The notes below the pieces were generated by a model. The model was not told the DNA's origin. It made no database searches and saw only the letters and a list, made by a program, of their open reading frames with translations. A stretch of 64,000 nucleotides of DNA from Microcoleus vaginatus PCC 9802 (GTDB lineage Bacteria > Cyanobacteriota > Cyanobacteriia > Cyanobacteriales > Microcoleaceae). Numbering within the stretch: position 1 is the stretch's first letter; each line of letters starts with the position of its first letter. Of the stretch, positions 26,066 to 59,451 are shown in pieces. The translations under genes and the position numbers were made by a program. The stretch spans positions 631,001 through 695,000 of the forward strand of contig CP031740.1 of the NCBI GenBank assembly GCA_022701275.1, read 5' to 3'.

Positions 26066-27130
26066 TTTTAAGTCCCGCTGAAGACGTTGACTCTCATTCG
26101 GCACTGTTACCAGCGCTGATGTTAGAGCGCAAAAGGAAAGAGGGGCGGGTGAATATTAATTACCGCTTTCCTGGTGTTTACATAGAATTCAACCGACCGA
26201 CTGTTCGCAACACCCCAGTATCTATCTGCCAAAACTTTGCTGTCATTGCAATGATAATAACGATGGATGCGAGCACGGAACAGTTCCCATAGGGATAATG
26301 TGCAGGTAACCGAAATTTCATCCTGAAGATAGATCCCTCATAAAATAAAACCTTTTTTCGCGAAAAACACCAAGCTAGACAACACTCTCTGGTCAAGATA
26401 ACATCATTTACTATCTAACCAACAAGGATGTACGGTAAACCGAATATTAGCCCACTTTTAAGGTGGAGGATAAAAGTAACATTAGCAACAATATTCAGTA
26501 GATTAATATCGCTTTTGGCAAAATTTTATACGGGATTAAAGAGGAGAATTCTTACCTTGATAATGTTGATTGCCCCCTCGATCTAACAGATATAAATACC
26601 GATTAGGGGCAGTGATTTTTTGGTAACTGTGCTGTCGGTATTGCTTGACACAATATCCTATTTTTTCAAGATTCAGACATGGTGGTTTTCTCAGATACCT
26701 GCTGGGGCGCGATCGCGCGAATCACCGTCGTGGACGTGCGAATGAGGCGAAAAACCCTGTTTTTCAAGCGGTATCCCTCGCCATCACTTGTCGTAGGTTC
26801 GTGTAAAAACCCGGTTGATGCGTCCACTGTTTGAAAAAATAGGTTTCCCAATCGTCCTACAGAACATAGAGTTTCACCGATATACATTTAATTAGCTGGG
26901 TGAGTTTTAAATTTGTTAATAAAAGGCGAGCTCCTGAAAAAATTTCCCAAAGAGACTGGCACTGCGGCACAGAGTATATGTAGCGTTCCTGCCCAATTCC
27001 TCTCTAAGTAATTACCGTAAAAAACTTCAGCAGCCAATTATCACATGACCCTATAAAGATCAAAGGAATACTCAAGGGTGAGCGACCTATACCCTGCAAA
27101 CCTTTACTCCTAAGCAGTAGCAGCAACTTC
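26066..27130. other. 1-kb non-coding stretch upstream of the polysaccharide group
   Basis: No open frame here has a ribosome site, motif or conserved start; the longest frames are antisense to each other. It lies upstream of both the minus-strand GT4 group and a plus-strand decayed kinase, so it may hold promoters for the former and lost N-terminal coding sequence of the latter. No tRNA-like fold or terminator is evident. Confidence 0.4.
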
Positions 27131-29376
27131 GTGATATGTATCAAACGATTTCGCGTACAAAAAATTTCCTGTTATGAAAGCATCATTTTTCCTAAGTTTG
27201 TAATTGCGGATGACAATCGGTGTGCTCTTGGGGGTTGGGCCGCCGATGCTTGTAGCGATATGTTGGCCAGTTTTTATGCAGCTAAAATTATGCGATCGCA
27301 AGCAAAAGAAAACCTAGGATTACAGTCAAATGCCTTAACGGAAAGCATCTTCCGGTGGGAAGATATAAACGTTCGATTATTGCAGAGCATCAGTCAAGAG
27401 CCCAGTACAATCAGCAGGAATGCCAGCAAACCCTTGTCGCTGCTAGTTGGTATCAACCCCAGCTATAGCCATATATAGCTTGCCGAAGCTGACAATTTAG
27501 AAAGGTACGTTGTCGCCCGCGGCAGCGGCACGCCGCCCGATCACATCAACCGCAGCGATCGGTATTGGTTTAAAAGTAGAGTTGCTGGCACGGAAATTAC
27601 CCGCGAAGCTTTGACATATCCCTTAACTGGAAAACCCGCAGTTATTTTCTCAACACCCATTCGGGAATTTGCTATTTTAAGTTTGGGCGATCGAGGAAAT
27701 TCAGTCAACCAATTGCAGCCGCAACTCAAACTACTCGGGTATTACAAAAACGAAATTACGGGAATTTACGGAAACCCCACCGCCGACGCCGTTGATCAAT
27801 TTCCAAAAAAATATTTAGGCTTGCCGGTTGGTGGCAGCGTCGATTTTACAACCAAGTAGCTTCTCGAACTAGCAAGTAATTTTAAACAACAATTTTCTCA
27901 CACACCTCAATTAAATTCAACAGATAAATCTGCCGACCAAGTGGAAAAAATTCAAGGAGTAGCTATTATAGGTATATTATTAAGCGCCGTCCCTCGCTCG
28001 GAACAGTCCCGACCTGGAAATTTAGCTTCGCTTTAGGGGGATAAAAAAAGGTCAATTAATCGGTCATCTCGACCCAAACTTACTTGCTAGAAAGCAACTA
28101 ATAAACCTCAGCAAATATCCGCAAGTCAAAACTCTATTAGCAGGCAAAAGTGGTGCATTTTTCTTCGGCGATGAGCGGGTAGTGAAATGGCTTTCATGTC
28201 TGAATTAATTAGACAGTGACCGGGGCGTAATTATCTTGCACGAAGAAGCCGAGGCTTTAGAAAAAAAACAGTTGTTTTTGCAGTTGGCAATTATTATTAC
28301 CGCCCTTGCCGTCTTGGGAGCCGGCGGTTTCACGTGGATATTAACCAGCCGTTTGGTTCGGCCGATCGCGGACTTGACAGTTGCTGCTGCACTGCTTTCG
28401 GGCGGCGACTGGAATCAGAGAGTAAATATCTATCGCCCAGATGAATTGGGGACGTTAGCCCAAGCTTTGAATCAAATGCTTTGCAATTGCAAAAGTTATT
28501 TTCTAGCTGGGAATCCCAACATCACGAAGCAGAAAAAGTTCGCAACAAAGCGGAACAAGCTAGCAATGTAAAAAGCTTATTTCGAGCCAATATGAGCCAC
28601 GAACTCCGCACGCCTCTGAATACAATTATCGGTTCCAGCTAAATGTTAGAAGAAGAAGCCTGCGGTCTAAATTGTGAATAATTACTTCACACTTTACAAG
28701 AAATTAATACGGAAATCTAACCTGTACTATCTCTGATTAATAATATTTTTAAGACTTATAAAAGTGAATATATAAGAATAAAGTTTTATTTATAAATGTG
28801 GAAGGATTCGGCGACAATCCACGACATGGCTACTATTATTAAACCTTTGATTGACAAAAGTGGCAATTTTTTGACAGTCAAGTGTGCGCCAGCTATCGAC
28901 CCGGTTTATACTAATCTTACTAAGATTTATCAGTGTGTTTTAAACCTGCTGAGCAATGCCAGCCAATTTACCAAATCTGGAAAAATTACTTTATAAGTAA
29001 GCCGTTTTAGAAGGAATAAGGAAGAGGAAAGGGGGAAGTCGGAATAAAAATTTACTTCTCTGGGAGAGGAACAGACAGAATCGGATGTTTTATGTTGAGA
29101 AGCGAAGGGAGAAGGAGAAAAAAGGAAAAAAGAATCAGAATCGGATATTTCGGCTGGTGAAGAAGGGATTAGTTTCAAAGTCAGCGATACTGGAATTGGG
29201 ATGAAGGCAGAGCAAATTGAGAGAGTATTTCAAGCTTTTACGCAAGCGGACGAGTCTACTACTCGCAGGTACGGCGGTACGGGTTTGGGACTGGCAATCG
29301 CCCAGAAATTCTTCCAGATGATGGGGGAGATATTCGTCGGGAGAGCGAGTTTGGAAAAGGGCCAAATTTTACTGTA
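27131..29376 (+). pseudogene. Decayed dCACHE-HAMP-histidine kinase with an internal peptidoglycan-binding module
   Basis: Pieces of one sensor kinase appear in order. The dCACHE sensor start (SNALTESIFRWEDINVRLLQ) is interrupted by TAG at 27476 and continues in frame (DNLERYVVARG, GKPAVIFSTPIREF). A peptidoglycan-binding-like module follows (LSLGDRGNSVNQLQPQLKLL, then GIYGNPTADAVDQF) and a stop at 27857. The HAMP region (LVRPIADLTVAAALLSGGD) then comes at about 28350, the HisKA box [20 protein letters not shown] at about 28580, and HATPase pieces ([41 protein letters not shown]) to about 29376. At least five stops or frameshifts separate them, so no kinase can be made. The internal peptidoglycan-binding segment is unusual for this family. 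Confidence 0.8.
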
Positions 29377-29407
29377 GAATGGCCGACGATAGTCACTGAA
29401 ACAGCAG

Positions 29408-36355: not shown

Positions 36356-38194
36356 TTAGGCGATAGTCGCCATTTTCACATCGCTATTAGCTAACAAATT
36401 TTGCAATTCATCCGCATCCACAGTTTCCTTTTCAACTAGCATATCTGCCAAAGCATTAAGGACATGGCGGTTGCCGACGAGTACATCTTTAGCGCGACGA
36501 TAAGCTTGCTCTACCAACAAACGCACTTCATCGTCGATCGTCGCTGCGGTTTCTTCCGAGAAATCGCGTTCGGCCATGATATCGCGACCCATGAACATAT
36601 TGCCTTGTTGGCGACCGAGAGCTACAGGGCCTAGCCGATCGCTCATTCCGAAGCGAGTCACCATTTGGCGCGCTACTCTTGCCACTTGCTGCAAGTCGTT
36701 CGACGCACCGGTTGTTACTTCTTCTTCGCCGAAGACAATCTCTTCAGCAATGCGGCCGCCCAAAGCTACGGCCATTTGATTTTGCAAGTAAGACCGAGAA
36801 TACAAGCCAGAATCCATCCGATCTTCGCTTGGTGTGAACCAAGTCAAACCGCCAGCGCGGCCGCGGGGGATAATGCTAATTTTCTGCACGGGGTCATAAT
36901 CGGGCATCAGCGCGCCGACTAAAGCGTGACCGGCTTCGTGGTAAGCTACCAAAGTTTTGCGCTTTTCGCTCATCACGCGGTCTTTCTTTTCCGGGCCTGC
37001 GAGCACGCGGTCGATCGCATCGTTGACTTCATCCATCGAGACTTCGGTCAAGTTGCGACGGGCGGCTAAAATTGCTGCTTCGTTGAGTAGGTTGGACAAA
37101 TCCGCACCTGTGAAACCGGGTGTCCGGCGGGCGATTTTTTCCAAGTCCACGTCTTTCGACAAAGTTTTGCCGCGGGCGTGAACGTTGAGAATTTCTAGGC
37201 GGCCTCCGAAGTCGGGGCGATCGACCACAACTTGGCGGTCAAAACGACCCGGACGCAGCAGCGCCGCATCGAGCACATCGGGGCGGTTCGTGGCAGCAAT
37301 CAAAATGATGCCAGTATTACCCTCAAAGCCGTCCATTTCGGTCAGCAACTGGTTCAGGGTTTGTTCGCGTTCGTCGTTACCACCGCCCAAACCAGCGCCC
37401 CGCTGGCGGCCTACGGCGTCAATTTCATCGATAAATACGATACAAGGAGCGTTCGATTTAGCTTGTTCAAACAAGTCGCGGACGCGGGAAGCACCGACAC
37501 CCACGAACATTTCCACAAATTCTGAACCGGAAATCGAGAAGAAGGGAACGCCTGCTTCTCCAGCCACTGCTTTTGCCAGCAGGGTTTTGCCAGTTCCGGG
37601 AGGGCCGACCAGCAGCACGCCTTTGGGGATTTTTGCTCCCACTGCGGTGAAGCGGTCTGCATTTTTCAGGAAGTCCACGACTTCTGCGAGCTCTAGCTTG
37701 GCTTGTTCGATGCCGGCCACGTCGCCGAAAGTCACCTGAGTTTGTGGCTCCATTTGGACTCTAGCTTTGGATTTGCCGAAGTTCATGGCTTGGTTGCCGG
37801 GCCCGTTTTGCGCGCGCCGCACCAGGAAAAACAGTCCGACCAAAAGCAGAATCGGGAAGAACAGGCTGCTGAGGGCTTTTACCCAGAAGCCTTCGTCGCT
37901 TTGGGGCAGAACAGAAATATCTACGTTATTTTTGGTCAGGATGTTGATCAGTTCGGGGTCGTTGGGCAGGTTAACGAGTACCTTGTTGCCGTCCTGGGCT
38001 GTGACCAAGGCTTTGCTGCGATCGGAACTGATATTTATTTTGTCTACTCTCTTGCCTTCGACTTCCTGAATGAATTGACTGTACTTCCAAACTTCGCGGC
38101 TTGGGGGCTGTTTGTCAAAAAAAGCCGTTGCTAAGGCAATGACTACAATAGCCAGCAGTGCGTACAGGCCAGCGTTTCTCCAGCGTTTATTCAC
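36356..38194 (-). CDS. ftsH: ATP-dependent zinc metalloprotease FtsH
   Basis: The protein has 612 residues. Two membrane segments (about 8-26 and 108-127) bracket a thylakoid-lumen or periplasmic domain. The AAA+ module carries Walker A GPPGTGKT (about residue 197), Walker [12 protein letters not shown] and the SRH region [18 protein letters not shown]. The protease has the zinc motif HEAGH (about residue 420) and a distal Asp in [11 protein letters not shown]. Cyanobacteria have four FtsH types; in photosynthetic cells they degrade damaged D1 and other membrane proteins. Which type this is cannot be assigned by eye. A good intrinsic terminator follows. Confidence 0.97.
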
Positions 38195-38752
38195 CGAGGT
38201 CGATCCTCCTAATTTTTAGTCCCTGTGATTTGGGAATTTTTATTTATGTTCATCAATCTTAACGTAATTGTAACTTGTTTTTGTGTGGTGAGGAATCCCG
38301 GCCATGCTGTGGCGGTCTGAGGTCGCGGGAACGGAACTGCCCTGGGCGGCGTCAGGAGATTCGGGTGTTGTCCTAATTTTTGGGTATCCTCTTACACTAT
38401 AAGGCATAATTTGTCAAGATTATCAAAACTGGTGGCGATCGCGTTAATCCCTTTTTCGGTTAAATAGCCATGCAGAAACCGGGTTTGTTGACGGAAATAC
38501 TGCACTTGAGTCTTTAATTAAAGTGAAAAACCCGGTTTCTTTGGTAGTTACGCCTAAGTTCTCTTAAACTGTTAAGTAAGGTAAAGTAGGACTGAGCCAG
38601 AAACCAAGTGTGTTTACCAAAAATCGTCATTTACCCCAATAGTCGGATCTCAAAAATCGGCTTTCTTTCGTAACTAAATTTAACTTCAGGGTTTTTTTTA
38701 GAAAACGCATTCCCAGATTAATAACACAATGAATTAAGGAGAAAATTGGATC
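38195..38752. other. Upstream region of ftsH and the giant glycosyltransferase gene
   Basis: The 558-base divergent gap contains a 13-base perfect inverted repeat, AGAAACCGGGTTT (38474-38486) and AAACCCGGTTTCT (38528-38540), a dispersed cyanobacterial word also seen in diverged form near 17690. An AAGGAG ribosome site stands about 12 bases before the giant gene's ATG. No other gene is visible. Confidence 0.55.
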
Positions 38753-41700
38753 ATGACTTCAGAAATTAATAAAATCATTCCCGCAGAAATTAAGTACGAT
38801 CAATTTTCTCAGGCTATTAAACAAATAGCCCAAGAAGAAGATATCCAAACCATTTTAGAAATAGGGTCATCTTCTGGCGAGGGAAGTACAGAAGCATTTG
38901 TCACAGGAATTAGAGAAAATCCCCATCATCCTCAACTTTTTTGCATGGAAATCTCCCAGGCAAGATTTACCGAATTACAAAAGAGATATGCTAACGATGG
39001 TTTTGTAAAATGTTATAATGTTTCCTCAGTAGGAATGAATAAATTTGCTCAAGAAAAAGAAGTTATTGATTTTTATAATTCTTACCAAACAGCACTGAAT
39101 CAATACCCCATAGAACGAGTATTAGATTGGCTCAAACAAGACCTAAAATATCTTCAAGATTCTGGAGTATCTCAGGTAGGAATTAAGCAAATAAAATCAG
39201 AAAATAAAATCCTTTTTTTTGATGTGGTCTTAATAGATGGTTCTGAATTTACCGGGGAAGCGGAATTAGATGAAGTCTATGGGGCTAAATTTATATTGCT
39301 AGATGATATTAATACCTTTAAAAACCATAAAAATTACCATAAACTTCTCAAAGATCCTAATTATAAACTCTTATTGCATAATCTTCATCTGCGAAATGGT
39401 TATGCCATTTTCCAGAAAGAAAAATTTGCGTTTAATGAAGAACAAATCGAACAACGGCTTGTACAAAGATTAGTTCGTCAAGGGATGACTGTTTTCGATA
39501 TTGGAGCCAATATTGGTAACTATTCTCTTTTGTTTAGTAATTTAGTCGGAGCTGAAGGAAAAGTATATTCATTTGAGCCGACTTCAACTACTTTTAATAG
39601 GCTCAAACAACGAACAGAAAATAATCAGAATATTTTCCTGTTTCAGAATGCAGTATTTTCCGAGAACAAACTGATTGAATTTAATGAATTTCCTGATGAG
39701 TTTTCGGTTTGGAACAGCATCGGCAGACCGCAGATGGAAAATCCAGAAAATCCCCAGGAATATGTACCTATTGTAAAAAGCGAAACCGTTAGCGCGATTA
39801 CAGTTGATTCATTTTGTCAAAAACATAATATTGAGAAAATAGATTACTTAAAAATCGATGTAGAAGGAGCTGAAAGTGATGTTCTTAATGGTTGCCTGAA
39901 TCTTTTAGCAAGAAAAGCAATTGAGTTTATTCAATTTGAAATATCTCAAAAAATGTTAGAGGGAATGCAGCACACCGCCAAAGAAACTTTTGATTTACTC
40001 ATGGCCAATGGTTATGAGTGTCATTGTATAGAAAAAACGGGTGCGATTGGTCGAGCAGTTGTCAACTCTAATGCTTTCTATGAAAATTATATTGCATTTC
40101 CATCACTTCCCCTTCATTTCTTTACCATCGTTCTCAATGGTGAACCGTTCATCCGTTATCATATTGATGTCTTGAAAAAATTACCCTTTCGATGGCACTG
40201 GCATATTGTCGAGGGGGTGGCAGATTTAAAACATGATACGGCTTGGAGTGTAACTCTGGGCGGTAACATTTCTGATGATGTTCATCGCGACGGGCGCAGC
40301 CTGGATGGGACTACCGAATATTTAGAGGAACTGGCTCGTCTTTATCCCCAAAATATTAGCATTTATCGTAAGCCAGAAGGCGAATTTTGGGAAGGGAAAC
40401 GAGAAATGATAAATGCTCCTATTGCCCGGATTTCTGAAGAGTGTTTATTGTGGCAAATTGATGTAGATGAACTCTGGACTTTTGAGCAGATTTGCCAAAC
40501 TCGACAGATGTTTATTGAACATCCTGAAAAAACCGCGGCTTTTTATTGGTGTTGGTATTTTGTTGGGGAAAATTTAGTTATTAGCACTCGTAATTGTTAT
40601 GCAAATAATCCTCAATATGAATGGCTACGCACTTGGCGTTTTAAACCAGGTATGGTATGGGCAACCCATGAACCGCCCAGATTAGCGGAACCCTTACCTA
40701 ACGGTAAATGGCGTGATGTCGCGTTTGTTAATCCTTTTCGACATCAAGAAACCGAAAAAGAGGGGTTAGTTTTCCAACATTTTGCCTACGTTACCCCGAA
40801 TCAATTGCGCTTTAAAGAGCAATATTATGGTTATAAAAATGCGACTTCTCAATGGTTGACTCTGCAACAACAGACTCACTTTCCTGTCTTATTGCGTCAA
40901 TACTTTGATTGGGTTAAGGATGAGAGTCAAGTCAATAGCGCGATCGCTTGTGGAGTAGAACCCCTTGCACAACGAGATATTAGTACAAAAAATTGGCACT
41001 TTAAAACTGTGTCTGCTTTACCTTCACTTGGTGTTAACCCTAGTCAAAAATCTCCGACTGTTGTCATTGATGGTGTATTTTTTCAACATAATAATACAGG
41101 CATTGCTCGCGTTTGGAAATCCCTCTGGCAAGAATGGGCAAATACGAAGTTGGCTCAAAATATTATCATTTTAGATCGAAACGGAACAGCCCCCAAAATT
41201 TCTGGTATCCGTTATAGAACTATTCCCGTTTATGATTACGGTAATACCGAGCGCGATCGCGCGATGCTCCAACAAATCTGCGATGAAGAAAAAGCAGATT
41301 TATTTATTTCTACTTATTATACAACGCCTTTGTCAACGCCATCGGTATTCATGGCCTATGACATGATTCCAGAGTTGATGGGACAAAATATTGGTCATCC
41401 CGAGTGGAGAGAAAAGCATTGCGGTATCCGCCACGCCTCTGCTTACATCACCATTTCGGAAAATACAGCCCGCGATTTAATTAAGGTTTTTCCGCAGATT
41501 TCTTCAAATTCTATCGCTGTAGCGCACTGTGGCATTGATGCCAATTTTTCGCCAGCCGATAGAGAAGAAGTTTCAGGCTTTAAGTCAAAATACAGCATTA
41601 CCAAGCCCTATTTTCTTTTGGTAGGCGAAAGGGTAGGCTGGCATGGTTACAAGAACGGGATATTATTCTTCAAAGCCTTTTCTCAACTTGCCAACAAGTT

Positions 41701-44700
41701 TGACTTTGATATAGTCTGTGCAGGTGGCAAACCTGTATTAGAACCAGAGTTGAAATTGTACTGTTCTGGGAATACTGTCCACACGCTGCAACTAAGCGAC
41801 ACGGAACTGAGAGCTGCTTATTCTGGTGCTTCAGTGTTAGTTTATCCGTCGAAATATGAAGGCTTTGGGTTGCCAGTCCTTGAGGCAATGGCTTGCGGTT
41901 GTCCAGTCATCACCTGTCCAAACGGTTCGATTCCAGAAGTAGCAGGACAAGCAGCGGTTTATGTAAATGGGGATGATGTTATTGGGCTTGTCAATGCTTT
42001 GCGGGAAATACAGAAGCCCGCTGTCCGCAACTCATTAATTGCGGCGGGGTTAGAGCAAGCTAAGAAGTTTTCCTGGTCGAAAATGGCTGCAATTGTTAGC
42101 TCAGTTTTGGTTCAAGTAGCTGAGCGCGCACATTCGGAGAATGCTTCCGTTCAACAGCCAACTGATGCAGGCTTGCAGGGGGAATTCGGGAATGCTGAGA
42201 ACTCCCAGCCTGTCCCCTCCGCTTTTAAAGTATCTGCGATCGTTTCTACTTACAATTCCGAAAAATTTATCCGCGGGTGCTTGCAGGACTTGGTAGAGCA
42301 AACGCTGTACAAACAAGACCAACTCGAAATCATAGTAATTGACAGCGGTTCCCAAGAAAATGAACAGTCTGTTGTGCGGGAATTTCAAGCGAAATATCCG
42401 AATATTGTGTACGATCGCACTTCGGACCGCGAGACATTATATGCAGCCTGGAATCGAGGCATTAAGATGTCGCGCGGAGCTTACATGACTAATGCTAATA
42501 CCGATGACAGACACCGCCCCGATGCCCTAGAAATCATGGCGCAATACTTGGATGAAAATGCCCCAGTAAGTCTGGTTTATGCTGACCAATTAATCACCAG
42601 CACAGCTAACGATACTTTTGCAAAAACCCCAGCAGAAAAGTGCTGGAATTGGCCAGCCTTTGACTACAGCGAACTCGAACGGCGCTGCATTATTGGTCCC
42701 CAGCCGATGTGGAGAAAATCGCTGCACGAAAAATACGGCTATTTCCGAACCGAATTTACGGCGGCTGGCGATTACGAATTTTGGCTGCGGATTGGCAAAA
42801 GCGAAAATATTGTGCACTTGCCAGAACTTCTCGGCTTGTACTGCGAAAATCAACAAGGTTTGGAACATTCATCGCCAATATCGCAGCAAGAAACTCGGCA
42901 AATATGGGAGCAATATGGGATCACCCGCCGAGGTGTAAAACCAGCCACTACATTACCTGTTTCAATCTCTCCATCACAGCTAAATGCCATGCCCTACCGC
43001 ACCTCCGCAGAAACACTCGTCAGCGTAATCATTCCCTGCTACAATCACGCAACTTTACTGAGAGAAACTGTTGAAAGTGTTATCCGTCAAACTTATCCAA
43101 ACTGGGAGTGCATAATTGTCAATGATGGCAGCACTGATGATACCAGCAACTTCGCCAATTATTTAATTAAACTGTATCCTCAAAAATCGCTTCGCCTCAT
43201 AGATAAATCCAACACGGGACCCGCTGATTCGAGAAATGTTGGCGTTCAGCAGTCGTCAGGAAAGTTTATTTTATTCCTAGATGCTGATGATAAACTTCAT
43301 CCCAAATTTATCGAGGAGTGCGTGGAAATTTTATTAGCAAAACCAAAGGTTGGTTTTGTCTATACAGATGTGCAGCACTTCGGAGCAAATTGCGATTTAG
43401 TTGTTCACGGTGACTTTGATGCCAATCGGTTTTTGAGAGACAATCAAGCCCCTGCTACTTCCCTATTTAGAAGGGAGATTTACGAGCAAGTAGGTGGCTT
43501 AAAAAAAGTGATGAAGCTGGGATGCGAAGATTGGGAATTTTGGGTTTCTGCCTATGAAAAAGGCTGGTTAGGCGATCGATTACCTAAGCCTTACCTCTAT
43601 TACAGGCAGCACGGCGACGGATCTAGCAGAACCCAAAAAATGGCTAGCGATCGCCCACAATTAGACTTAATGAGAGCCACAATTATTTACCTCCACTCTC
43701 AACTTTATAAACCCGAAGAAGTGCGTTGGTCACAGCAGATTTTGCAGCAACACGGGAATTTAATAGCTAATGAATTAGTGGAATTTAACAAACCCGAACA
43801 ATTTTTAACTTTGCTGTCCCAATATGTGGGAGAGTATCAAAAAGACCAAGCTAATGAAGTAAACCTCGCTAACCTCCGCCAATCCCGGCAGCAACTTGCC
43901 AATTATTGGCTGAATCTGCCTGCTGAACAACTGGCAAATGCCTATGGCGGTGATGCTGGTAAGGCGCATCAGCTACTGCTAAACAGTAACATCAAAGATG
44001 AAGCGCTGACAGATGCCGAAAAGATTGTTATCGATCGACTAGCATCGCATCTCTCCCAGGGAGTTAAAAATCCCAAAGATATTAACTACCTACTAGCAGC
44101 CGCCCTATATCGTCGTGCAGATCAGTTACTGCTGAACTATGAAAATGCAGTTATACCTAATTGGTTTGTCAACCAGTATCTCAAATTCATGTTTGCGGCG
44201 CCTAGTCTCTTTCAAGAAATAGGAGAGGCTGACAATTATTGCCGATATGCCCAGGGATGGGTCAGTTATTTGCATAGCAATATCTTCAAGAACCAAAACT
44301 CACAAGTGTGGCAGGAAATCGCCTCGTTCTTCACCCAAAGCGCTAACTTTATTCCTCTGTACTTTAATAGTGAAAATCTCAAGGATATATACACAAAGCG
44401 GGCAGATATTATTGAATATACCTTGAAAAATCGTGGCGCTGCGATTGATTGCATTTTTCCGGCTAGACCTGCGAACAGGCCGAAAATTCGCCTTGGTGTC
44501 CTGACTAAACATTTCGGGGCTATGACGGAAACTTTCGCTACCTTGCCAGCTTTTGAATATCTGAATCGAGAGCAATTTGAAATTATTTTATACGCTCTCA
44601 ATCTCGACGGCAATAAACTAGAACAGTATTGTCAGAGTCGCGCTGACAGACTGGTTAAACTGTCTAATGAATTGCCAACTCAAGTTCAGACAATCCGCGC

Positions 44701-46981
44701 TGATGACTTAGATATTCTGCTGATTGCTACCAATATTACTGCGGTTACTCATCCGATTAGTTTACTGGCGCTGCATCGATTGGCGCGGGTACAAACTACC
44801 TGTTTTAATTCTCCCATTACCACAGGAATGCGACACATTGACTATTACATTGCTGGTAAGTTGATGGAACCTGCACCTGAAGGACAGGAGCATTATCGCG
44901 AGCAATTAGCAACTATTGACGGGCCTGGCTGCTGTTTTAGCTATACCCTCGAACCTTACACTCCTAACATTAATTTCACCAGAAATAGTATCGGGATTTC
45001 CGAGGAATCGGTTGTCTTTATTTCGAGTGCTAATTTGTATAAGCTAGTGCCGGAGTTAAGGGAAACATGGGCAAAAATTATGGCTGCTGTTCCTAATTCG
45101 GTGCTGTTTTTAATGCCCTTCGGTCCTAGCTGGACTAATCATTATCCTGGAGGGGCTTTTGTGAATAATATGAAAGCCGTTTTTGCTAAGTATGGCATTG
45201 AGAGTAATCGTTTGCGGGTGTTGAAGAGTTTTCCTAACCGTGCGGATGTTAAAGAAGTTCTGAAGTTGGGGGATGTTTATTTGGATTCCTATCCCTATGC
45301 GGGGACTACTTCTCTTGTAGATCCGTTAGAGGTGGGACTTCCAACGGTGGTTAGGGATGGCGATACTTTGCGATCGAGAATGGGGGCGGCCGTGGTACGA
45401 TCGCTCTCTATGCCAGATTTAATTGCCAATAGTGAAGCATCTTACATTCAGCTAGCAGTTACTCTCGGCACTAATCCTGAACTTCGGCAACGCTATCGCC
45501 AGGAAATTCAGCAAAAAATGCAAGCTAATCCGGCTTGTTTTGACAGTGTTGCATACTCGGGGGCGATCGGCAAATTATTCCAAGAACTCTTTGGTAAATG
45601 GCAAACCAGCCACCTGGAAGCATCCCGCAGCTTACAGGATACCATTCCCAAGCAGGCAGATGTCGGCGATCTTCTCTCGAATGCCGTCAACCTTTACCAA
45701 AGAAACTCTTCAAACATCTCAGCAATATCCGAACTCCGTCAAATCCGCAAACAAATCGCTGATTTTTGGCTGAACGTTCCCGCCGAAAACCTCGAAACCG
45801 CCTACAAAAGCGCTTCAGGTAACAGCTATCAAATCCTGCTCAAGAGCGGTTTCCAACGTCAACCGATGATCGAAAGCGAACAAATATTTTTGCAGCAATT
45901 AACCCAGATTAGCAAAGGATTAGTGCATCCCAAAGCTGTCAACGCCTTGCTTGCCGCGATGCTGTATTTCCCGCCGGGAACCATGCGAATTCCCGACGCT
46001 CGCAACCGTTTGCCGCACTGGTTAATTGGGGATTACGAACAAGTTTTTGAGACTGAAGCCGCCGTCAAGTCTGATTCAACTTCTGACTTGCTAGCTCAAT
46101 ACATTCAATCGCCACAATTTGCGAATCAACTGTTAGGATGCGTCAATCTTTACCGCATCGATCCGTCTGACGAATCGGTAGTTTTGGAACTCCGCCAAAT
46201 CAGAAAACAAATGGCTGATTTTTGGCTGACTGTTCCTTCAGAGAAACTCGAAAGTTTTTACCGAGGAGAAGTTCGCAAGGGATATCAAGCAATACTTAGC
46301 TGCGGCTTGCAAGCAGAATCGATGACTGAAGCCGAACAGCAGTTTTTGCAGAAATTGACTGAAATTAGCCAAGGGTTGGTCCAGCCTCAAGCTATCAATG
46401 CTCTCCTGGGGGCAATGCTGTATTTTGTTCCGGGAAAAATGCGGGTTCCCGATGCTCGCACCCGGTTGCCGGAGTGGTTGCTTGAAGATTACGAAAAGGT
46501 GTTTGAAAGCGCATTTGTGACAACAGAACCAACACTTGTCAAACAAGATTATCTGCCGCAGTTTCTCAATCAATTAACTGCTGCCGTCAATCTCTATGAA
46601 ATAGACCCTACGGCTGAATTGGTAATAGCAGATTTGCGGCATATTCGCAAGCAAATTGCCGATTTGTGGCTGAGCGTTTCCGGAGAACAACTGGAACTTT
46701 TGTACCGGAGCGATTTTGGCAAGGGTTACAAAGCAATGCTGGGCAGCGGGTTTATTAACGAGCCACTGCATGAGAGCGATCGCGAGTTTTTTAACTCGTT
46801 GGTTGCTGAGTTGAGTAAAGGGTTTGGAACGCCTAAAGCTGTTAATAATTTGTTGGCCGCCATGCTGTATTGTCGCCTAGGACAGTTGCGGGTTCAGGAT
46901 GCGAATACTTGTTTGCCTCCGTGGTTGTTGGCGGATTACGAGCAGTTGGTTGGGGGTGCGATCGAGCTTGCGGTGAAGTAA
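38753..46981 (+). CDS. Giant 2742-residue multidomain methyltransferase/glycosyltransferase
   Basis: Domains in order, with approximate residues: SAM-methyltransferase-like fold (30-220, LEIGSSSGEGSTEAF); FkbM methyltransferase (235-440, FDIGANIGNYSLLF and YLKIDVEGAESDVL); a GT-A-like domain (452-740, QIDVDELW); a GT4 glycosyltransferase (765-1125, YEGFGLPVLEAMACG); GT2 copy one (1158-1386, NTDDRHRPDA); GT2 copy two (1420-1645, LFLDADDKLHP); a repeat domain R0 (1700-1806); an OGT/SPINDLY-type GT41 domain (1908-2283, YPYAGTTSLVDPLEVGLPTV); and three more repeat domains (2303-2739). It probably builds a multi-sugar, partly methylated glycan on a protein or lipid acceptor. No signal peptide is seen, so it is likely cytoplasmic. 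The first 2.3 kb look more A+T-rich than the rest, suggesting fusion of modules of different origin. Confidence 0.9.
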   Translation: MTSEINKIIPAEIKYDQFSQAIKQIAQEEDIQTILEIGSSSGEGSTEAFVTGIRENPHHPQLFCMEISQARFTELQKRYANDGFVKCYNVSSVGMNKFAQEKEVIDFYNSYQTALNQYPIERVLDWLKQDLKYLQDSGVSQVGIKQIKSENKILFFDVVLIDGSEFTGEAELDEVYGAKFILLDDINTFKNHKNYHKLLKDPNYKLLLHNLHLRNGYAIFQKEKFAFNEEQIEQRLVQRLVRQGMTVFDIGANIGNYSLLFSNLVGAEGKVYSFEPTSTTFNRLKQRTENNQNIFLFQNAVFSENKLIEFNEFPDEFSVWNSIGRPQMENPENPQEYVPIVKSETVSAITVDSFCQKHNIEKIDYLKIDVEGAESDVLNGCLNLLARKAIEFIQFEISQKMLEGMQHTAKETFDLLMANGYECHCIEKTGAIGRAVVNSNAFYENYIAFPSLPLHFFTIVLNGEPFIRYHIDVLKKLPFRWHWHIVEGVADLKHDTAWSVTLGGNISDDVHRDGRSLDGTTEYLEELARLYPQNISIYRKPEGEFWEGKREMINAPIARISEECLLWQIDVDELWTFEQICQTRQMFIEHPEKTAAFYWCWYFVGENLVISTRNCYANNPQYEWLRTWRFKPGMVWATHEPPRLAEPLPNGKWRDVAFVNPFRHQETEKEGLVFQHFAYVTPNQLRFKEQYYGYKNATSQWLTLQQQTHFPVLLRQYFDWVKDESQVNSAIACGVEPLAQRDISTKNWHFKTVSALPSLGVNPSQKSPTVVIDGVFFQHNNTGIARVWKSLWQEWANTKLAQNIIILDRNGTAPKISGIRYRTIPVYDYGNTERDRAMLQQICDEEKADLFISTYYTTPLSTPSVFMAYDMIPELMGQNIGHPEWREKHCGIRHASAYITISENTARDLIKVFPQISSNSIAVAHCGIDANFSPADREEVSGFKSKYSITKPYFLLVGERVGWHGYKNGILFFKAFSQLANKFDFDIVCAGGKPVLEPELKLYCSGNTVHTLQLSDTELRAAYSGASVLVYPSKYEGFGLPVLEAMACGCPVITCPNGSIPEVAGQAAVYVNGDDVIGLVNALREIQKPAVRNSLIAAGLEQAKKFSWSKMAAIVSSVLVQVAERAHSENASVQQPTDAGLQGEFGNAENSQPVPSAFKVSAIVSTYNSEKFIRGCLQDLVEQTLYKQDQLEIIVIDSGSQENEQSVVREFQAKYPNIVYDRTSDRETLYAAWNRGIKMSRGAYMTNANTDDRHRPDALEIMAQYLDENAPVSLVYADQLITSTANDTFAKTPAEKCWNWPAFDYSELERRCIIGPQPMWRKSLHEKYGYFRTEFTAAGDYEFWLRIGKSENIVHLPELLGLYCENQQGLEHSSPISQQETRQIWEQYGITRRGVKPATTLPVSISPSQLNAMPYRTSAETLVSVIIPCYNHATLLRETVESVIRQTYPNWECIIVNDGSTDDTSNFANYLIKLYPQKSLRLIDKSNTGPADSRNVGVQQSSGKFILFLDADDKLHPKFIEECVEILLAKPKVGFVYTDVQHFGANCDLVVHGDFDANRFLRDNQAPATSLFRREIYEQVGGLKKVMKLGCEDWEFWVSAYEKGWLGDRLPKPYLYYRQHGDGSSRTQKMASDRPQLDLMRATIIYLHSQLYKPEEVRWSQQILQQHGNLIANELVEFNKPEQFLTLLSQYVGEYQKDQANEVNLANLRQSRQQLANYWLNLPAEQLANAYGGDAGKAHQLLLNSNIKDEALTDAEKIVIDRLASHLSQGVKNPKDINYLLAAALYRRADQLLLNYENAVIPNWFVNQYLKFMFAAPSLFQEIGEADNYCRYAQGWVSYLHSNIFKNQNSQVWQEIASFFTQSANFIPLYFNSENLKDIYTKRADIIEYTLKNRGAAIDCIFPARPANRPKIRLGVLTKHFGAMTETFATLPAFEYLNREQFEIILYALNLDGNKLEQYCQSRADRLVKLSNELPTQVQTIRADDLDILLIATNITAVTHPISLLALHRLARVQTTCFNSPITTGMRHIDYYIAGKLMEPAPEGQEHYREQLATIDGPGCCFSYTLEPYTPNINFTRNSIGISEESVVFISSANLYKLVPELRETWAKIMAAVPNSVLFLMPFGPSWTNHYPGGAFVNNMKAVFAKYGIESNRLRVLKSFPNRADVKEVLKLGDVYLDSYPYAGTTSLVDPLEVGLPTVVRDGDTLRSRMGAAVVRSLSMPDLIANSEASYIQLAVTLGTNPELRQRYRQEIQQKMQANPACFDSVAYSGAIGKLFQELFGKWQTSHLEASRSLQDTIPKQADVGDLLSNAVNLYQRNSSNISAISELRQIRKQIADFWLNVPAENLETAYKSASGNSYQILLKSGFQRQPMIESEQIFLQQLTQISKGLVHPKAVNALLAAMLYFPPGTMRIPDARNRLPHWLIGDYEQVFETEAAVKSDSTSDLLAQYIQSPQFANQLLGCVNLYRIDPSDESVVLELRQIRKQMADFWLTVPSEKLESFYRGEVRKGYQAILSCGLQAESMTEAEQQFLQKLTEISQGLVQPQAINALLGAMLYFVPGKMRVPDARTRLPEWLLEDYEKVFESAFVTTEPTLVKQDYLPQFLNQLTAAVNLYEIDPTAELVIADLRHIRKQIADLWLSVSGEQLELLYRSDFGKGYKAMLGSGFINEPLHESDREFFNSLVAELSKGFGTPKAVNNLLAAMLYCRLGQLRVQDANTCLPPWLLADYEQLVGGAIELAVK

Positions 46982-47443: not shown

Positions 47444-48517
47444 ATGCGGATTACTGAACTAACTAGACGAAATATTATTGAAGCTCTCTTAGGAAAGAAC
47501 ATCTATGGTAGGCTTGAACTTTTTGATTTTTTAAACCTGACTTGGAACTTGTCAGAAATGCCCTCTACAGATAGTCGATTTGAAAATGCTGCTGGTGATA
47601 TCTGGCAACACATGGTAAATAACAATGATTGGGAGGAAGACTATTTATTCTTCAGGTGTCTTGATATTCTTCAATTACCAGATCAGCGTTTTTTACATTT
47701 CCTAGAGCAGGTAATACACCCTATTGTTCGACATTCTGAGACTCAAGCGGAGTACGCTGAGATCATCAATTCATACTTAGTCCATGATGGATATCGACTA
47801 AATGCAACAGAGCAGATGTCTGGTTGTCCAGTTTATAAAGCTACTATGCTACAAGGAGGTGTACCTAGTCGAGTTAAGAATTTGATATTTGCTTCAAACG
47901 GGCATAAGCCAGAGATTGTCTTGGTTGATGCTGTGAATAATGATATTCAGATTACTCGAAATGAAAAAAACTGCTTAGTTTATGAAGAATCAGTACCATC
48001 ATCAGGTTTATCCTGGTCTAATTTAGTCCAATGGTGGGCAGCGCTCACTAACACAGATCCTATTAGTAGTGAAACGAAGAAAGCTTTATATGAGCGATTA
48101 TGTGACTCACTTGAGTCTGAGCCTGAACGTTTATTGTTTAATAGCTATTTTCAAAGAATCTATCCATTGATGCAGGACCCACCAGCTTTAATCCCTCAAA
48201 TTTATTTGCACTATGACCCCTACACAGTTAGTGAGCGCAATGGGCAGAAAGTGCTACCCCGACAGCGTATGGATTTTCTCTTACTATTACCTAGCTCACA
48301 GCGCGTGGTTATTGAAGTTGATGGTAAGCAGCATTATGCCAATAAGGACACAGCAAGTCCTCGCCTCTATGCTGAGATGGTTGCAGCCGATCGTGAATTA
48401 AAGTTGAGCGGATATGAAGTGTATCGTTTTGGTGGTTTCGAGCTACAAGGAGATTCCGGGAAGCAAGTTGTAGAAGATTTTTTTCGCAAACTTTTTGTGC
48501 GACATGGATTACTTTAG
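47444..48517 (+). CDS. AbiJ-NTD3-like protein with C-terminal nuclease-like domain (defence candidate)
   Basis: The 357-residue protein begins MRITELTRRNIIEALLGKN, then YGRLELFDFL and STDSRFENAAGDIWQHMVNN, closely resembling the AbiJ N-terminal domain 3 of abortive-infection proteins. The C-terminus (about 270-350) has a restriction-endonuclease-like core: MDFLLLLP with D276, then VVIEVDGKQHYAN with E291 and K295, and LSGYEVYRFGGFEL, as in Vsr/DUF559-type nucleases. The middle is helical and unassigned. The combination suggests an effector that cuts nucleic acid on infection. It stands alone and precedes a convergent MazEF-type pair. Function is inferred from domains only. Confidence 0.7.
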   Translation: MRITELTRRNIIEALLGKNIYGRLELFDFLNLTWNLSEMPSTDSRFENAAGDIWQHMVNNNDWEEDYLFFRCLDILQLPDQRFLHFLEQVIHPIVRHSETQAEYAEIINSYLVHDGYRLNATEQMSGCPVYKATMLQGGVPSRVKNLIFASNGHKPEIVLVDAVNNDIQITRNEKNCLVYEESVPSSGLSWSNLVQWWAALTNTDPISSETKKALYERLCDSLESEPERLLFNSYFQRIYPLMQDPPALIPQIYLHYDPYTVSERNGQKVLPRQRMDFLLLLPSSQRVVIEVDGKQHYANKDTASPRLYAEMVAADRELKLSGYEVYRFGGFELQGDSGKQVVEDFFRKLFVRHGLL

Positions 48518-55710: not shown

Positions 55711-56427
55711 TTAGGCTAATTTTCCATCTTCCATGTGAAGGATGCGATCGGCAATATCCAAAATTCGGTTATCGTGGGTTACTAACAAAATAGTACAACC
55801 CTGTTCTTTGGCTAGTTGCTGCATCAAATTCACGACTTCGCGACCGGATTTGCTGTCCAGGGCGGCTGTGGGTTCATCAGCCAAAACAATTTGCGGTTGA
55901 CTGACCAAAGCCCGGGCGATCGCAACTCTTTGTTTCTGTCCTCCCGACAAATCCTCTGGATAATAGTTAATTCGCTGTTCCAGTCCTACTAACTCTAGCA
56001 TTTTTGCAGAGCGATCGCGCATTTGAGAACGCGACAAATTCCCGTGAACTTCCAAACCCATCTGCACGTTTTGCAGCGCCGTCAAACTGCGGTGCAAGTT
56101 GTGCGCCTGAAAAATATAGCCTATTTTGCGCCGCGCCTTTACCAATTGGTCTGCACTAGCTTTGCACATTTCTTGACCGAGAATTTTGAGACTTCCTGAT
56201 TGACCGGATCTCAGCCCGCCAATCAAAGTTAAAAGCGTGGTTTTTCCAGAACCAGAAGGTCCCGTCATCAGCACGATTTCACCTGCCTCAACGTCGAGAT
56301 TAATGTCAAAAAGTACCTGTTTTCGCAGTTGACCTTGACCGAAGTAGTGGTCGAGTTGGTGCGCGGAAACTACAGGTGCAGGAATCTGTAATGGGTTGGT
56401 AGTTGGGTAGAGAGTAGTAGAGTTCAT
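55711..56427 (-). CDS. devA: DevA-type ABC transporter ATPase
   Basis: The 238-residue protein has Walker A GPSGSGKT, signature LSGGQKQRVAIARALV and Walker B IVLADEPTAALD, as in the MacB/LolD-type exporters. The line DHYFGQGQLRKQVLFDINLD is typical of DevA. It works with DevC and DevB to export glycolipids or other molecules through a TolC-like channel. It lies downstream of devC by 319 bases containing two repeat elements that may have been inserted. Confidence 0.93.
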   Translation of the reverse strand: MNSTTLYPTTNPLQIPAPVVSAHQLDHYFGQGQLRKQVLFDINLDVEAGEIVLMTGPSGSGKTTLLTLIGGLRSGQSGSLKILGQEMCKASADQLVKARRKIGYIFQAHNLHRSLTALQNVQMGLEVHGNLSRSQMRDRSAKMLELVGLEQRINYYPEDLSGGQKQRVAIARALVSQPQIVLADEPTAALDSKSGREVVNLMQQLAKEQGCTILLVTHDNRILDIADRILHMEDGKLA

Positions 56428-56536
56428 AACTTTTTGGTTTGAGGTTTTAGATTAAAGAATAAATAGCTTTTGTCGCAGACAATGCAGAGAAAAAACAAGA
56501 GAATGATTACCAAAAATAGGTCTGTAATCAGGACTT

Positions 56537-56638
56537 TATAGCAATCCTCAATCATTTGTAAATTTCTTACTCCCTCCCCTTGATAAGGGGAGGGCTGGGG
56601 TGGGGTAAAAAATTTACGACTCATTTATGATTGCTATA
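56537..56638. repeat. MITE-like element with 29-base terminal inverted repeats
   Basis: The 102-base element begins TATAGCAATCCTCAATC and ends (reversed) TATAGCAATCATAAATG; the two ends match over about 29 bases with roughly seven mismatches. TA lies at each border, as expected for IS630/Tc1-mobilised MITEs. It has no coding capacity and lies between devC and devA. Confidence 0.6.
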
Positions 56639-56639
56639 T

Positions 56640-56740
56640 ACAAAATCTGGCTTTAATACCCCCTTTATTCTTTAGTCTGGGGAAGCGGACTTCGTTTGTG
56701 TACAAAGGTTTCAACCGCCGAGTCTTATAAACTGATTCAT
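56640..56740. repeat. Diverged copy of the 15588-15717 repeat
   Basis: AAATCTGGCTTTAATACCCC, CGGACTTCGTTTG and AGGTTTCAACCGCCGA follow the same order as inside the element at 15588-15717, with substitutions and one missing end. It is a dispersed repeat next to the MITE-like element. Confidence 0.55.
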
Positions 56741-56746
56741 TTTCCC

Positions 56747-57931
56747 TTAAAACATATCTGCGGGATCGGCTGCTTGCAGTTTCCGAGTGGCAATTGCTCC
56801 AGAAATAGTGCACATAATCACGTTCAAAAGTAATACTATAAATGCTCTAAGCAGCGTCATATAAAGGGGTAAATTTGTAGCTGTGCGAGTTAAAGAGTAG
56901 AGTCCGAGAGAGACTCCTACTCCGGGCAAAAAGCCGAGGACAGAAAGAATTAGAGCTTCTTCAAAGACGATGCCGAGTAAATAAACATTGCGGTAGCCCA
57001 TCGCTTTGAAAGTAGCGTATTCTCCCATGTGGTCGCTGACATCGGTTGAGAGAACTTGATAAACAATAATGACACCAACTACAAAACCCATCGCGACGCC
57101 TAAATTAAACACAAAGCCGATCGCAGTATTCTTAGCCCAATAGTTTTTCTCAAAATCGATAAATTCTTGTTTGGTTAGTACCTTGACATCTGGCGGTAAA
57201 TATGATTTCAAAACTTGTTGAACTTCCACGGGGTCAGCACCCGGTTGCAGTTGAATTAATCCGGCATTGACACTCGCGGCGTTTTGTCTGGGAAACAGGC
57301 GCAGGTAATTTTGATCGCTAGTCATCAAAATACCGTCGGCGGCAAAAGATGCTCCAACTGTGAATAAACCGCTGACGTTAATCGTGCGTCGCTCGACCTC
57401 AGCTTTAACGGCTTTTCCTCGATCGATTTGCGCGATCGTTCCTTGGTAATCTCCCCTAGAAGCTCGATCGAACAGCACGGTATCCGGCAATTTAATCGCG
57501 CTCAAATTTTGGTTAACTTCTGGAAGCGCAAACGCAGGCTGATTCGGATTGAAACCGACCACCATCAGCGACGTTTCGCGCCGAGTTTCGGGATTTTTCC
57601 AGTTAGCAATTTTCACGTAAAGCGGCTCGGCTGATTTCACGCCCGGTACGTTCATTGCTTGATACAATCTGCGCCTGGGGAAGGAAGACAAATTAATCAA
57701 ATTTCGCGCTTGGGGGTGAATCAAAACTAAGTCTGTTTGCAAGGCTTGATGCAGCCGCGTATTGCTGGTGTAAAGCGCATTTTGAAAGCCTAACTGCATG
57801 AACATCAAAACGTCAGCAAAGGCAATTCCTGCTACTGCAACCAGCATTCGCCCTTTGTCGTGACTCAGTTGCAGCCATCCGAGGGGAGTTCTGCGTCTTA
57901 ATTGTTGTAAGGGTTGGATGAGTCCAATCAT
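56747..57931 (-). CDS. devC: DevC-type ABC transporter permease
   Basis: The 394-residue protein has an N-terminal helix (about 28-50), a large periplasmic domain (about 55-265) and three C-terminal helices (about 275-390), the MacB/FtsX-type permease plan. TPLGWLQLSHDKGRMLVAVA and SDHMGEYATFKAMGYRNVYL are DevC hallmarks. With devB upstream and devA downstream it forms the exporter. Spacing to devB is 64 bases. Confidence 0.93.
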   Translation of the reverse strand: MIGLIQPLQQLRRRTPLGWLQLSHDKGRMLVAVAGIAFADVLMFMQLGFQNALYTSNTRLHQALQTDLVLIHPQARNLINLSSFPRRRLYQAMNVPGVKSAEPLYVKIANWKNPETRRETSLMVVGFNPNQPAFALPEVNQNLSAIKLPDTVLFDRASRGDYQGTIAQIDRGKAVKAEVERRTINVSGLFTVGASFAADGILMTSDQNYLRLFPRQNAASVNAGLIQLQPGADPVEVQQVLKSYLPPDVKVLTKQEFIDFEKNYWAKNTAIGFVFNLGVAMGFVVGVIIVYQVLSTDVSDHMGEYATFKAMGYRNVYLLGIVFEEALILSVLGFLPGVGVSLGLYSLTRTATNLPLYMTLLRAFIVLLLNVIMCTISGAIATRKLQAADPADMF

Positions 57932-57995
57932 AGGATTTTAGATTTTAGATGTTGGATTTTGGATTGAAGAAAGCGACCCTGCGGTTTAAGTCTTC

Positions 57996-59423
57996 TTAAT
58001 CTTTAATTTCCCCGATCGCCACTTTGACTTGCAAATTGGTTAATCCCGCTACTTTCTGGCTGGAAGGTGCATCCAAACGCACTTTTACTTCCACAATTCG
58101 ACCATCAATATTCGCAGAAGGATCGGTGTTAACAATGTTTTGCCGCTGCACTTGCAAACCAATATGTTCGACAGTTCCGCGCAATTCGCCGGTCAAAGCA
58201 TCGCTAGTAATTTTGGCGGTTTGTCCGAGGCGTACTTTGTCCACATCGCTTTCGTAGATTTCCGCAACAGCTAGCATCTCGCGAGTTTGTCCCAGTTCGA
58301 CAATGCCGTCGTTTCCTACCCTTTCCCCCGGATGCGTGTGAATTTTCAGGACTTGGGCGTCTCTGGGAGCACGGATGTAAGCTAGATCCAGATTGGCTTT
58401 GGCGCCTTTGGCTGCTGAAGTGGCGGAACTGACTTCGGCGGCGGCTGCTGCTATGTCAACGGGACGCACTTCGGCGATGCGATCGAGATTTGCCACGGCT
58501 TCATTAATCTGCTGTTGTCGAGATTCCTGAATTTGGCTGAGTTTGGCTTGCGCTTCGTTAATTTGTTGTTGGCGGGATTGCTGAATTTGGTTGAGTTTGG
58601 CTTGGGCTTCGTTAATCTGCTGTTGGCGGGATTGCTGAATTTGATTCAGTTTTGCCTTTCCTTCGTTGAGTTGCTGTTGAGTTGTTTCGGCGGCGAGGCT
58701 TTTGCTGTCGCTGGTGGAAGCAGAGATTGCTCCTTGTTGATACAGTTGCGAGTACCGCTGATCCTCGCTTCTGGCGTTGCGGAGTTCGGCTTGTAGGCGG
58801 GCAATTGCGGCTTTTTGGGTTTGAATTTCCCCTTGCTGTTCGGCCCTGATGCGAGCAATTGTGGCTTCTTGCGCTGCGATTTCGGTGCTGCGATCGACTT
58901 CTAGGCGCGCAACGATCGCCTGTTGCGCTGCGATCTCGTTGCTGCGATCGGCGGATAAACGGCTAATAGTCGCTTTTTGGGCTTGGATTTCGCCGTTTTT
59001 GGCTCCAGCTTTGACTTTCGCTAGGTTTGCCTCGGCGACGCGCACTTGTTCTTGAGCTTGTTCGAGGGCGGCTTGCAGGCGATCGCGACTGTCCAAAATT
59101 GCGATCGCCTGACCTGTTTTCACCCTGTCTCCCTCTTTAACTAAGAGTCGATCGATCCGGTTCCCTTCCGCCGCACCGGAGGCGGAGACTTTAATTACTT
59201 CTCCTCTGGGTTCGAGTCGCCCCAAGGCTGTAACTCGGGTTAATTGGGATGCTGCGACGGCGGCTGCTGCTGCTACTGCGTTGGGATCGGGTATGCGCGA
59301 TCGCCAGATGGTGTACCCTGTGGTTCCCCCTGCCGCCAGGGTTGCTACTGCTGCCACAGCTAGGAGTTGTTTAACTAGGGATGGATTTGAGGATAAGCCG
59401 TCGGCTGTTGCTCGGTGTACCAT
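57996..59423 (-). CDS. devB: DevB-type membrane-fusion (HlyD-like) adaptor
   Basis: From the ATG at 59423, which has GAGGTG five bases upstream, the protein is about 475 residues; an ATG at 59438 lacks this site. It has one membrane anchor (about 15-40), biotinyl-lipoyl halves (RVKTGQAIAILDSRD and the later YIRAPRDAQVLKIHTHPGE) and a very long coiled-coil hairpin. Part of the hairpin is made of a tandem unit, INEAQAKLNQIQQSRQQQ, repeated about three times. It bridges DevAC to an outer-membrane channel. It is divergent from the tetR gene across a short operator region. Confidence 0.9.
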   Translation of the reverse strand: MVHRATADGLSSNPSLVKQLLAVAAVATLAAGGTTGYTIWRSRIPDPNAVAAAAAVAASQLTRVTALGRLEPRGEVIKVSASGAAEGNRIDRLLVKEGDRVKTGQAIAILDSRDRLQAALEQAQEQVRVAEANLAKVKAGAKNGEIQAQKATISRLSADRSNEIAAQQAIVARLEVDRSTEIAAQEATIARIRAEQQGEIQTQKAAIARLQAELRNARSEDQRYSQLYQQGAISASTSDSKSLAAETTQQQLNEGKAKLNQIQQSRQQQINEAQAKLNQIQQSRQQQINEAQAKLSQIQESRQQQINEAVANLDRIAEVRPVDIAAAAAEVSSATSAAKGAKANLDLAYIRAPRDAQVLKIHTHPGERVGNDGIVELGQTREMLAVAEIYESDVDKVRLGQTAKITSDALTGELRGTVEHIGLQVQRQNIVNTDPSANIDGRIVEVKVRLDAPSSQKVAGLTNLQVKVAIGEIKD

Positions 59424-59451
59424 GACACACCTCATCATTTAGGTTGATAAA

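Follow-up and report, generated by a model that had tools for sequence, protein, structure and literature searches.

Polypeptides carrying several glycosyltransferases (GTs) are already known, as are the GT41, FkbM, GT2 and GT4 families. In chlorovirus PBCV-1, protein A064R has the domain order GT-GT-methyltransferase (MT), and capsule and O-antigen polymerases such as K4CP, with two or more GTs per chain, combine fewer activities than the protein described here and make repeating polymers. To our knowledge, K4CP-type enzymes have no GT41 anchor or MT array, and the multidomain proteins of PBCV-1 have no GT41 and no module exchange. Flagellin glycosylation islands consist of separate genes. 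Published accounts mention FkbM genes in such an island of Geobacillus (PMC5109656) and describe a multidomain PBCV-1 protein, A111/114R, with three GT domains (PMC7826918). Here we analyse a window of 64,000 nucleotides from Microcoleus vaginatus PCC 9802 (contig CP031740.1, positions 631,001 to 695,000), in which one open reading frame (ORF; 38753..46981, + strand) encodes two MT-like domains, a GT-A-like domain, a GT4, two GT2, a GT41 and four copies of an unnamed helical domain, R.

Like A111/114R and A064R, the ORF places several GTs on one polypeptide, with methyltransferases as in A064R, but the viral proteins have three domains each; they build a protein-linked glycan outside the usual organelle pathway, as the ORF product is proposed to do. 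Two or more GTs per chain are also the point of resemblance to K4CP-type polymerases, and a chondroitin synthase structure was listed among the structure matches. Flagellin glycosylation islands similarly gather glycosylation genes, with mentions of FkbM, at one place, whereas their acceptor is flagellin. With SPINDLY (SPY), OGT, XcOGT and the HMW1C-type N-glycosyltransferases, the ORF shares a GT-B fold (in the structural model) and the essential lysine, and its PYAGTT loop is as in SPINDLY. Unlike in all of these, its GT41 is fused to GT4, GT2, GT-A and MT domains and has an altered N-lobe motif (hand alignment), and, unlike in SPINDLY and OGT, R domains, including C-terminal copies, stand in place of tetratricopeptide repeats (TPRs). 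The open-access titles and abstract openings that we searched held no description of several GTs and MTs joined to a GT41 and exchanged as cassettes within one gene.

The 2742-codon frame that a first-pass annotation of the sequence had reported is real and intact: it starts at an ATG, has no internal stop, lies on a single 6.7-Mb contig and would give a product with a calculated mass of about 312 kDa. The seven catalytic domains proposed in that annotation are all present (Table 1). FkbM, GT group 1 (GT4; aa 951-1086), GT2 (two stretches) and GT41 matched Pfam families above the curated cut-offs, FkbM with both its Pfam (aa 249-422) and NCBIfam models. The GT2 and GT4 domains have DxD or E-x7-E motifs; in GT2a, NTDD replaces the textbook DxD, with its first D kept in 61/61 aligned copies. 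MT1 and the GT-A-like domain were recognised mainly by conserved motifs. MT1 (aa 1-225) had no Pfam match at E<=1, and its motifs LEIGSSSGxGSTE, D..LIDG and DD are nearly invariant across 7 copies. An AlphaFold2 (AF2) model of aa 1-770, built on three sequences and poor overall (pLDDT 48), showed strands and helices alternating in a class-I MT-like manner in this domain (pLDDT about 50-80), the rest of the model being poor. The GT-A-like domain (aa 449-760) had a sub-threshold match to PF13704 (E 0.009), no NCBIfam match and a low-confidence AF2 model; its DVDE motif is invariant (8/8 copies).

Key motifs were largely conserved across all 7 catalytic domains in a check of aligned copies, which covered motifs other than that of the GT41 N-lobe; we therefore rejected decayed domains as an explanation. 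Each of the six testable segments, which cover GT4 to R4 (MT1, FkbM and GT-A have no near relative), is under purifying selection, with dN/dS, taken as the ratio of computed dN and dS, of about 0.06-0.3. Against the near relative L035 the values were about 0.30 for GT2a, 0.18 for GT2b, 0.08 for R1 plus linker, 0.06 for GT41 and 0.14 for R2-4; against L030, GT4 gave 0.27. Together with long homologous frames and the retrieval of a syntenic gene in 22 of 23 congener genomes, this led us to reject a chance open frame. The conserved motifs and the purifying selection thus support the earlier view of a single-protein multi-enzyme. No membrane segments were found in the 2742-aa ORF.

Table 1. Features of the multi-enzyme gene and its upstream flank, with positions in the window.
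Feature	Residues	Position	Strand	Basis
Whole multi-enzyme ORF	2742 aa	38753..46981	+	ATG start
MT1, class-I methyltransferase-like domain	1-225	38753..39427	+	motifs, strand-helix pattern in AF2 model
FkbM methyltransferase	242-430	39476..40042	+	PF05050 E 2.7e-22, TIGR01444 1.6e-29
GT-A-like domain	449-760	40097..41032	+	weak PF13704, invariant DVDE
GT4	764-1122	41042..42118	+	Pfam, hidden Markov model (HMM), E-x7-E motif
GT2a	1157-1405	42221..42967	+	profile matches (from about 1159), motif
GT2b	1421-1680	43013..43792	+	Pfam (best GT2 stretch 1424-1542), motif
R1, unnamed all-alpha domain before GT41	1690-1809	43820..44179	+	HMM, AF2 helices
GT41 GT-B domain	1905-2296	44465..45640	+	Pfam, alignment, AF2 model, structure comparison
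R2	2310-2430	45680..46042	+	HMM, AF2 helices
R3	2462-2582	46136..46498	+	HMM, AF2 helices
R4	2610-2730	46580..46942	+	HMM, AF2 helices
ftsH, divergent neighbour marking conserved address		36356..38194	-	named by eye from sequence
Divergent intergenic region, ftsH / ORF		38195..38752	.	ORF map

The GT41 domain scored 104.4 bits with Pfam Glyco_transf_41 (cut-off 25; best stretch aa 2075-2269), and a confident model has the GT-B fold of the OGT/SPY type. Its sequence is closest to SPINDLY and OGT, and nearer the former: K2097, Y2182 and T2186 align with SPY K665, Y744 and T748, and the phosphate-binding lysine, kept as K2097, is K in 95% of 103 aligned copies. The OGT counterpart of SPY K665 is K842. 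In the N-lobe, an E and a T are near-invariant (alignment A2). On either side lies R, a ~120-aa domain with one copy before GT41 and three after, which is all-alpha in a confident AF2 model (pLDDT 85.9). Its four copies were matched at aa 1692-1809, 2312-2428, 2464-2580 and 2612-2729. The R stretches matched no Pfam model at E<=1; nor did any TPR model match the ORF protein at E<=1, and the N-terminal TPR superhelix of OGT and SPINDLY was not found. By our own HMMs, 3 ORFs have R without GT41. If our reading of the gene is true, R and the altered N-lobe would define a new branch of GT41.

Among the 23 congener genomes, the syntenic anchor was found in all but G003 (74% complete). Across these 22 loci the R-GT41-RRR end does not vary, and all that lies N-terminal of it is cassette-like. 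Modules are named here after our own HMMs (GT9, GTG, GTH, MT1, GTA, MT23 and R), GT9, GTG and GTH being guesses by eye for stretches with no matching Pfam at E<=0.01. The anchor is preceded by GT4 alone in 7/22 congeners, by MT23-GT4-GT2-GT2 in 5, where MT23, a different methyltransferase, occupies the place of the window's MT1-FkbM-GTA, by GT9-GT2-GT4 in 4, by FkbM-FkbM-GTG-GT2-GT2 in 3, by four GT2 in 2 and by GTH-GT2-GT2 in 1. Both four-GT2 loci have, some 150 bases upstream, a separate 214-217-aa ORF for an MT. The window's own MT1-FkbM-GTA front occurs in 0/22 congener loci, 3 of which show a remote FkbM match only (26-27%). Elsewhere, it forms 1257-1268-aa ORFs in other families (L053, L054), has partial copies at other sites in congener genomes (fetched stretches L055 and L059) and precedes the Planktothrix rubescens homologue.

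No MT1 match was listed elsewhere in the window's own genome, and a same-genome copy was rejected as the cassette source, the candidate (L052) sharing only the GT-A part (69-70% identity) and a remote FkbM (26-32%). That candidate is itself a second mega-ORF of 2496 aa without GT41 (L052:5808-13295, at about 263.8-271.3 kb), in which FkbM, four GT2, a GT11-like domain (GT11 being a fucosyltransferase family) and a GTA-GT4 pair resembling the window's were recognised.

Pairwise comparisons located the points of exchange. The genes of P. rubescens and Planktothrix sp. PCC 11201 are 91% identical over 2507 aa and carry different fronts, MT1-FkbM-GTA and MT23, changing over at the linker that precedes (V/I)IDGVFFQ of the GT4; the window and congener L030 change over at the same linker. 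Locus L084 combines a front resembling that of L035 (62-81% per 100 aa over the first 700 aa) with a remainder resembling that of L047, its identity to L047 being 87-96% over 801-1400, 87-93% over 1601-2000, 51-74% between these stretches and 72-86% in the repeats. In Okeania, L090 has one 3161-aa frame with three tandem methyltransferases. In L091 this sequence (identity 94% over 1293 aa and 96% over 1900 aa) is spread over two overlapping frames, 1374 and 1900 aa long, through either a real split or an assembly error.

Exchange also reaches the anchor. Across 23 loci, the R1-GT41 core falls into two allelic classes with mean identities of 90.5% within and 65.5% between, which form clades at 100/100 in trees, whereas the C-terminal repeats are not divided by these classes (80.0% within, 79.9% between). 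Divergence of the repeats follows that of ftsH (Spearman 0.81), compared with 0.26 for the core (171 pairs). Constraining class A to monophyly gave p-AU 1.1e-5 with the repeats (23 rows) and 1.1e-4 with ftsH (19 rows, with four loci lacking a full ftsH left out), a rejection in both cases.

The gene undergoes cassette exchange at a fixed chromosomal address. Its divergent position next to ftsH is seen in Microcoleus and Tychonema as well as at loci of Planktothrix, Arthrospira, Okeania and Trichodesmium. Scanning one genome per species (84,980 species) gave 396 stretches that matched a pattern, of which 136 encoded a relative; the counts below refer to the best 80 of these, kept as 79 loci. 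The best relatives among named records are from Microcoleus and Tychonema, and R and GT41 occur together in 80 ORFs including the window's (72 uncut), spanning Microcoleus, Tychonema, Kamptonema, Planktothrix, Arthrospira, Okeania, Trichodesmium, Nostoc and others. An ftsH more than 80% identical lies in the fetched flank of 34/79 named loci, always upstream and divergent; among the remaining 45 are other paralogues and short contigs. When genomes were drawn evenly from the phylum, 24/291 matched the anchor alignment at E<=1e-60. Where scanned in other genera, upstream genes again encode methyltransferases (TPR-MT24-GXM in Arthrospira, TPR-FkbM in Trichodesmium, TPR-GXM in Okeania). Neither the cassette exchange and the conserved address nor the R domains had been anticipated by the first-pass annotation.

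We consider it about an even chance that the gene encodes a soluble enzyme of modular make-up in which GT41 primes a protein and the other modules build a methylated oligosaccharide on it. The activity of each domain, the protein acceptor, the order of action, the capping and the docking by R are inferences. The product would be a soluble cytosolic multi-enzyme whose C-terminal R-GT41-RRR anchor attaches the first sugar to an acceptor protein; chain extension by GT2b, GT2a, GT4 and the GT-A domain would follow, and the N-terminal methyltransferases would add methyl caps, so that module order from C to N would run from attachment point to tip. Replacement of N-terminal modules, and less often of the R1-GT41 core, by recombination at interdomain linkers would change the glycan, while each lineage would retain its C-terminal repeats, perhaps as docking sites for its own acceptor. 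GT41 is the last catalytic module in 72/72 uncut ORFs (our own HMM set), the position expected if it primes or attaches, a methyltransferase precedes a GT in 35/47 cases, and diversity grows with distance from the anchor in the 10 class-A loci, which fits a C-to-N order with a variable tip. More speculatively, and rather doubtfully as a whole, the family may be a single-polypeptide glycan megasynthase with C-to-N order whose cassettes pass between filamentous cyanobacteria at a single fixed locus; it would then be a one-gene serotype system, with module exchange like that of nonribosomal peptide and polyketide synthases (NRPS/PKS) and species-constant repeats that select the acceptor. The largest array in the sampled ORFs reaches nine catalytic modules (L101, which has three MTs and, counting GT41, six GTs). 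If the proposed mechanism is right, glycan structure could be predicted from the module content of a single gene, and natural cassette swaps would be ready-made tests. The family would then also offer a system for protein-glycan assembly that is soluble and perhaps programmable, and would give surface variation among bloom- and crust-forming cyanobacteria a genetic basis.

Several observations weigh against this mechanism. Recombination geometry alone, rather than glycan order, could lie behind the N-terminal-ward diversity. Among the 72 uncut ORFs, 15 have no MT or GT before R-GT41 by our HMMs and 3 have an MT directly before it without a recognised GT; in L086, L092, L094 and others an MT lies between GTs, so methyltransferases are not only terminal caps. 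In the GT41 itself, SPY H495-S496 correspond to M-T (hand alignment), and SPY N661 and H728 are not kept (alignment). The neighbourhood gave no convincing acceptor, two stretches with RTX and GT genes having been viewed as ORF lists only; RTX repeats are abundant (184 matches). Finally, the GT41 gene is short (1426-1435 aa) in the 7 congeners with GT4 alone, 6 of which have separate same-strand GT genes upstream (442 and 977-1037 aa), the contig of the seventh ending there; fusion is therefore not needed for function. The frame is thus split, with modules as separate genes, in some relatives, while the other 15/22 keep one frame of 1875-2343 aa. Such split forms, and the free mixing of MT and GT modules, are what would be seen if the ORF were a loose fusion of independent enzymes serving several unrelated glycans, without assembly-line logic. 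We regard this as very improbable given the strictly C-terminal GT41, the constant neighbour module in class A and the purifying selection across the tested segments.

The first-pass annotation had proposed a defined methylated oligosaccharide, which is a fair reading, possibly O-linked to protein through the OGT-like domain. O-linkage is the weaker part: the GT41 sequence is nearer SPINDLY than OGT, and its model aligns with HMW1C-type N-glycosyltransferases over more residues than with OGT or SPY, spanning the alpha-helical N-domain plus GT-B (mainly model residues 49-602), with remote sequence. R-GT41 might accordingly work like an HMW1C-type cytosolic N-glycosyltransferase, with an alpha-helical N-domain rather than TPRs, on an exported adhesin, the other modules extending the glycan; we judge this improbable. 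A somewhat stronger contender, although still unlikely, is that the same multi-enzyme assembles a methylated oligosaccharide repeat, a capsule or a lipid-linked glycan, with a carbohydrate or lipid as the GT41 acceptor. The GT2, GT4 and FkbM modules are similar to those found in polysaccharide loci, the GT41 N-lobe differs from that of SPY (hand alignment), polysaccharide pyruvyl transferase and NDP-sugar epimerase-like genes lie beside relatives (L106, L095), and a candidate ABC-exporter set (by eye) lies about 9 kb downstream in the window (55711-59438). However, the ORF has no membrane segment, no flippase or polymerase was seen by eye among its immediate neighbours (10 window ORFs scanned), and the characterised GT41 members that we know of act on proteins.

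Directly after the multi-enzyme ORF, an abortive-infection-type gene (47444-48517, +) encodes a protein with AbiJ N-terminal domain 3 and a weak DUF559 nuclease-like C-terminus; being AbiJ_NTD3-like and unmatched (E<=1e-8) in those congener stretches that were fetched, it was rejected as the acceptor. The possible export set further downstream, on the - strand, comprises by eye an ABC ATPase, a DevC-type permease and an HlyD-type adaptor. On the other side, a stretch of ~3.3 kb (26105-29407) between a GT4 gene and a CPBP-type protease gene (by eye) has no ORF of at least 150 aa, one weak inverted repeat and no Rfam match.

Additional R-GT41 genes were seen elsewhere. In L120, a metagenome-assembled genome labelled Thiomargarita, a 581-aa R-GT41 ORF is 56% identical in its best segment, through transfer or mis-binning. 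Phormidium sp. OSCR (L106) has a cluster with two R-GT41 genes, between which lie a TylF methyltransferase, the polysaccharide pyruvyl transferase and a GT. A second R-GT41 gene, in L057 (8240-12109), encodes GT2-R-GT41 of about 1290 aa without C-terminal repeats, and its architecture, unlike that of the ftsH-linked gene, is constant in the named relatives L137-L140.
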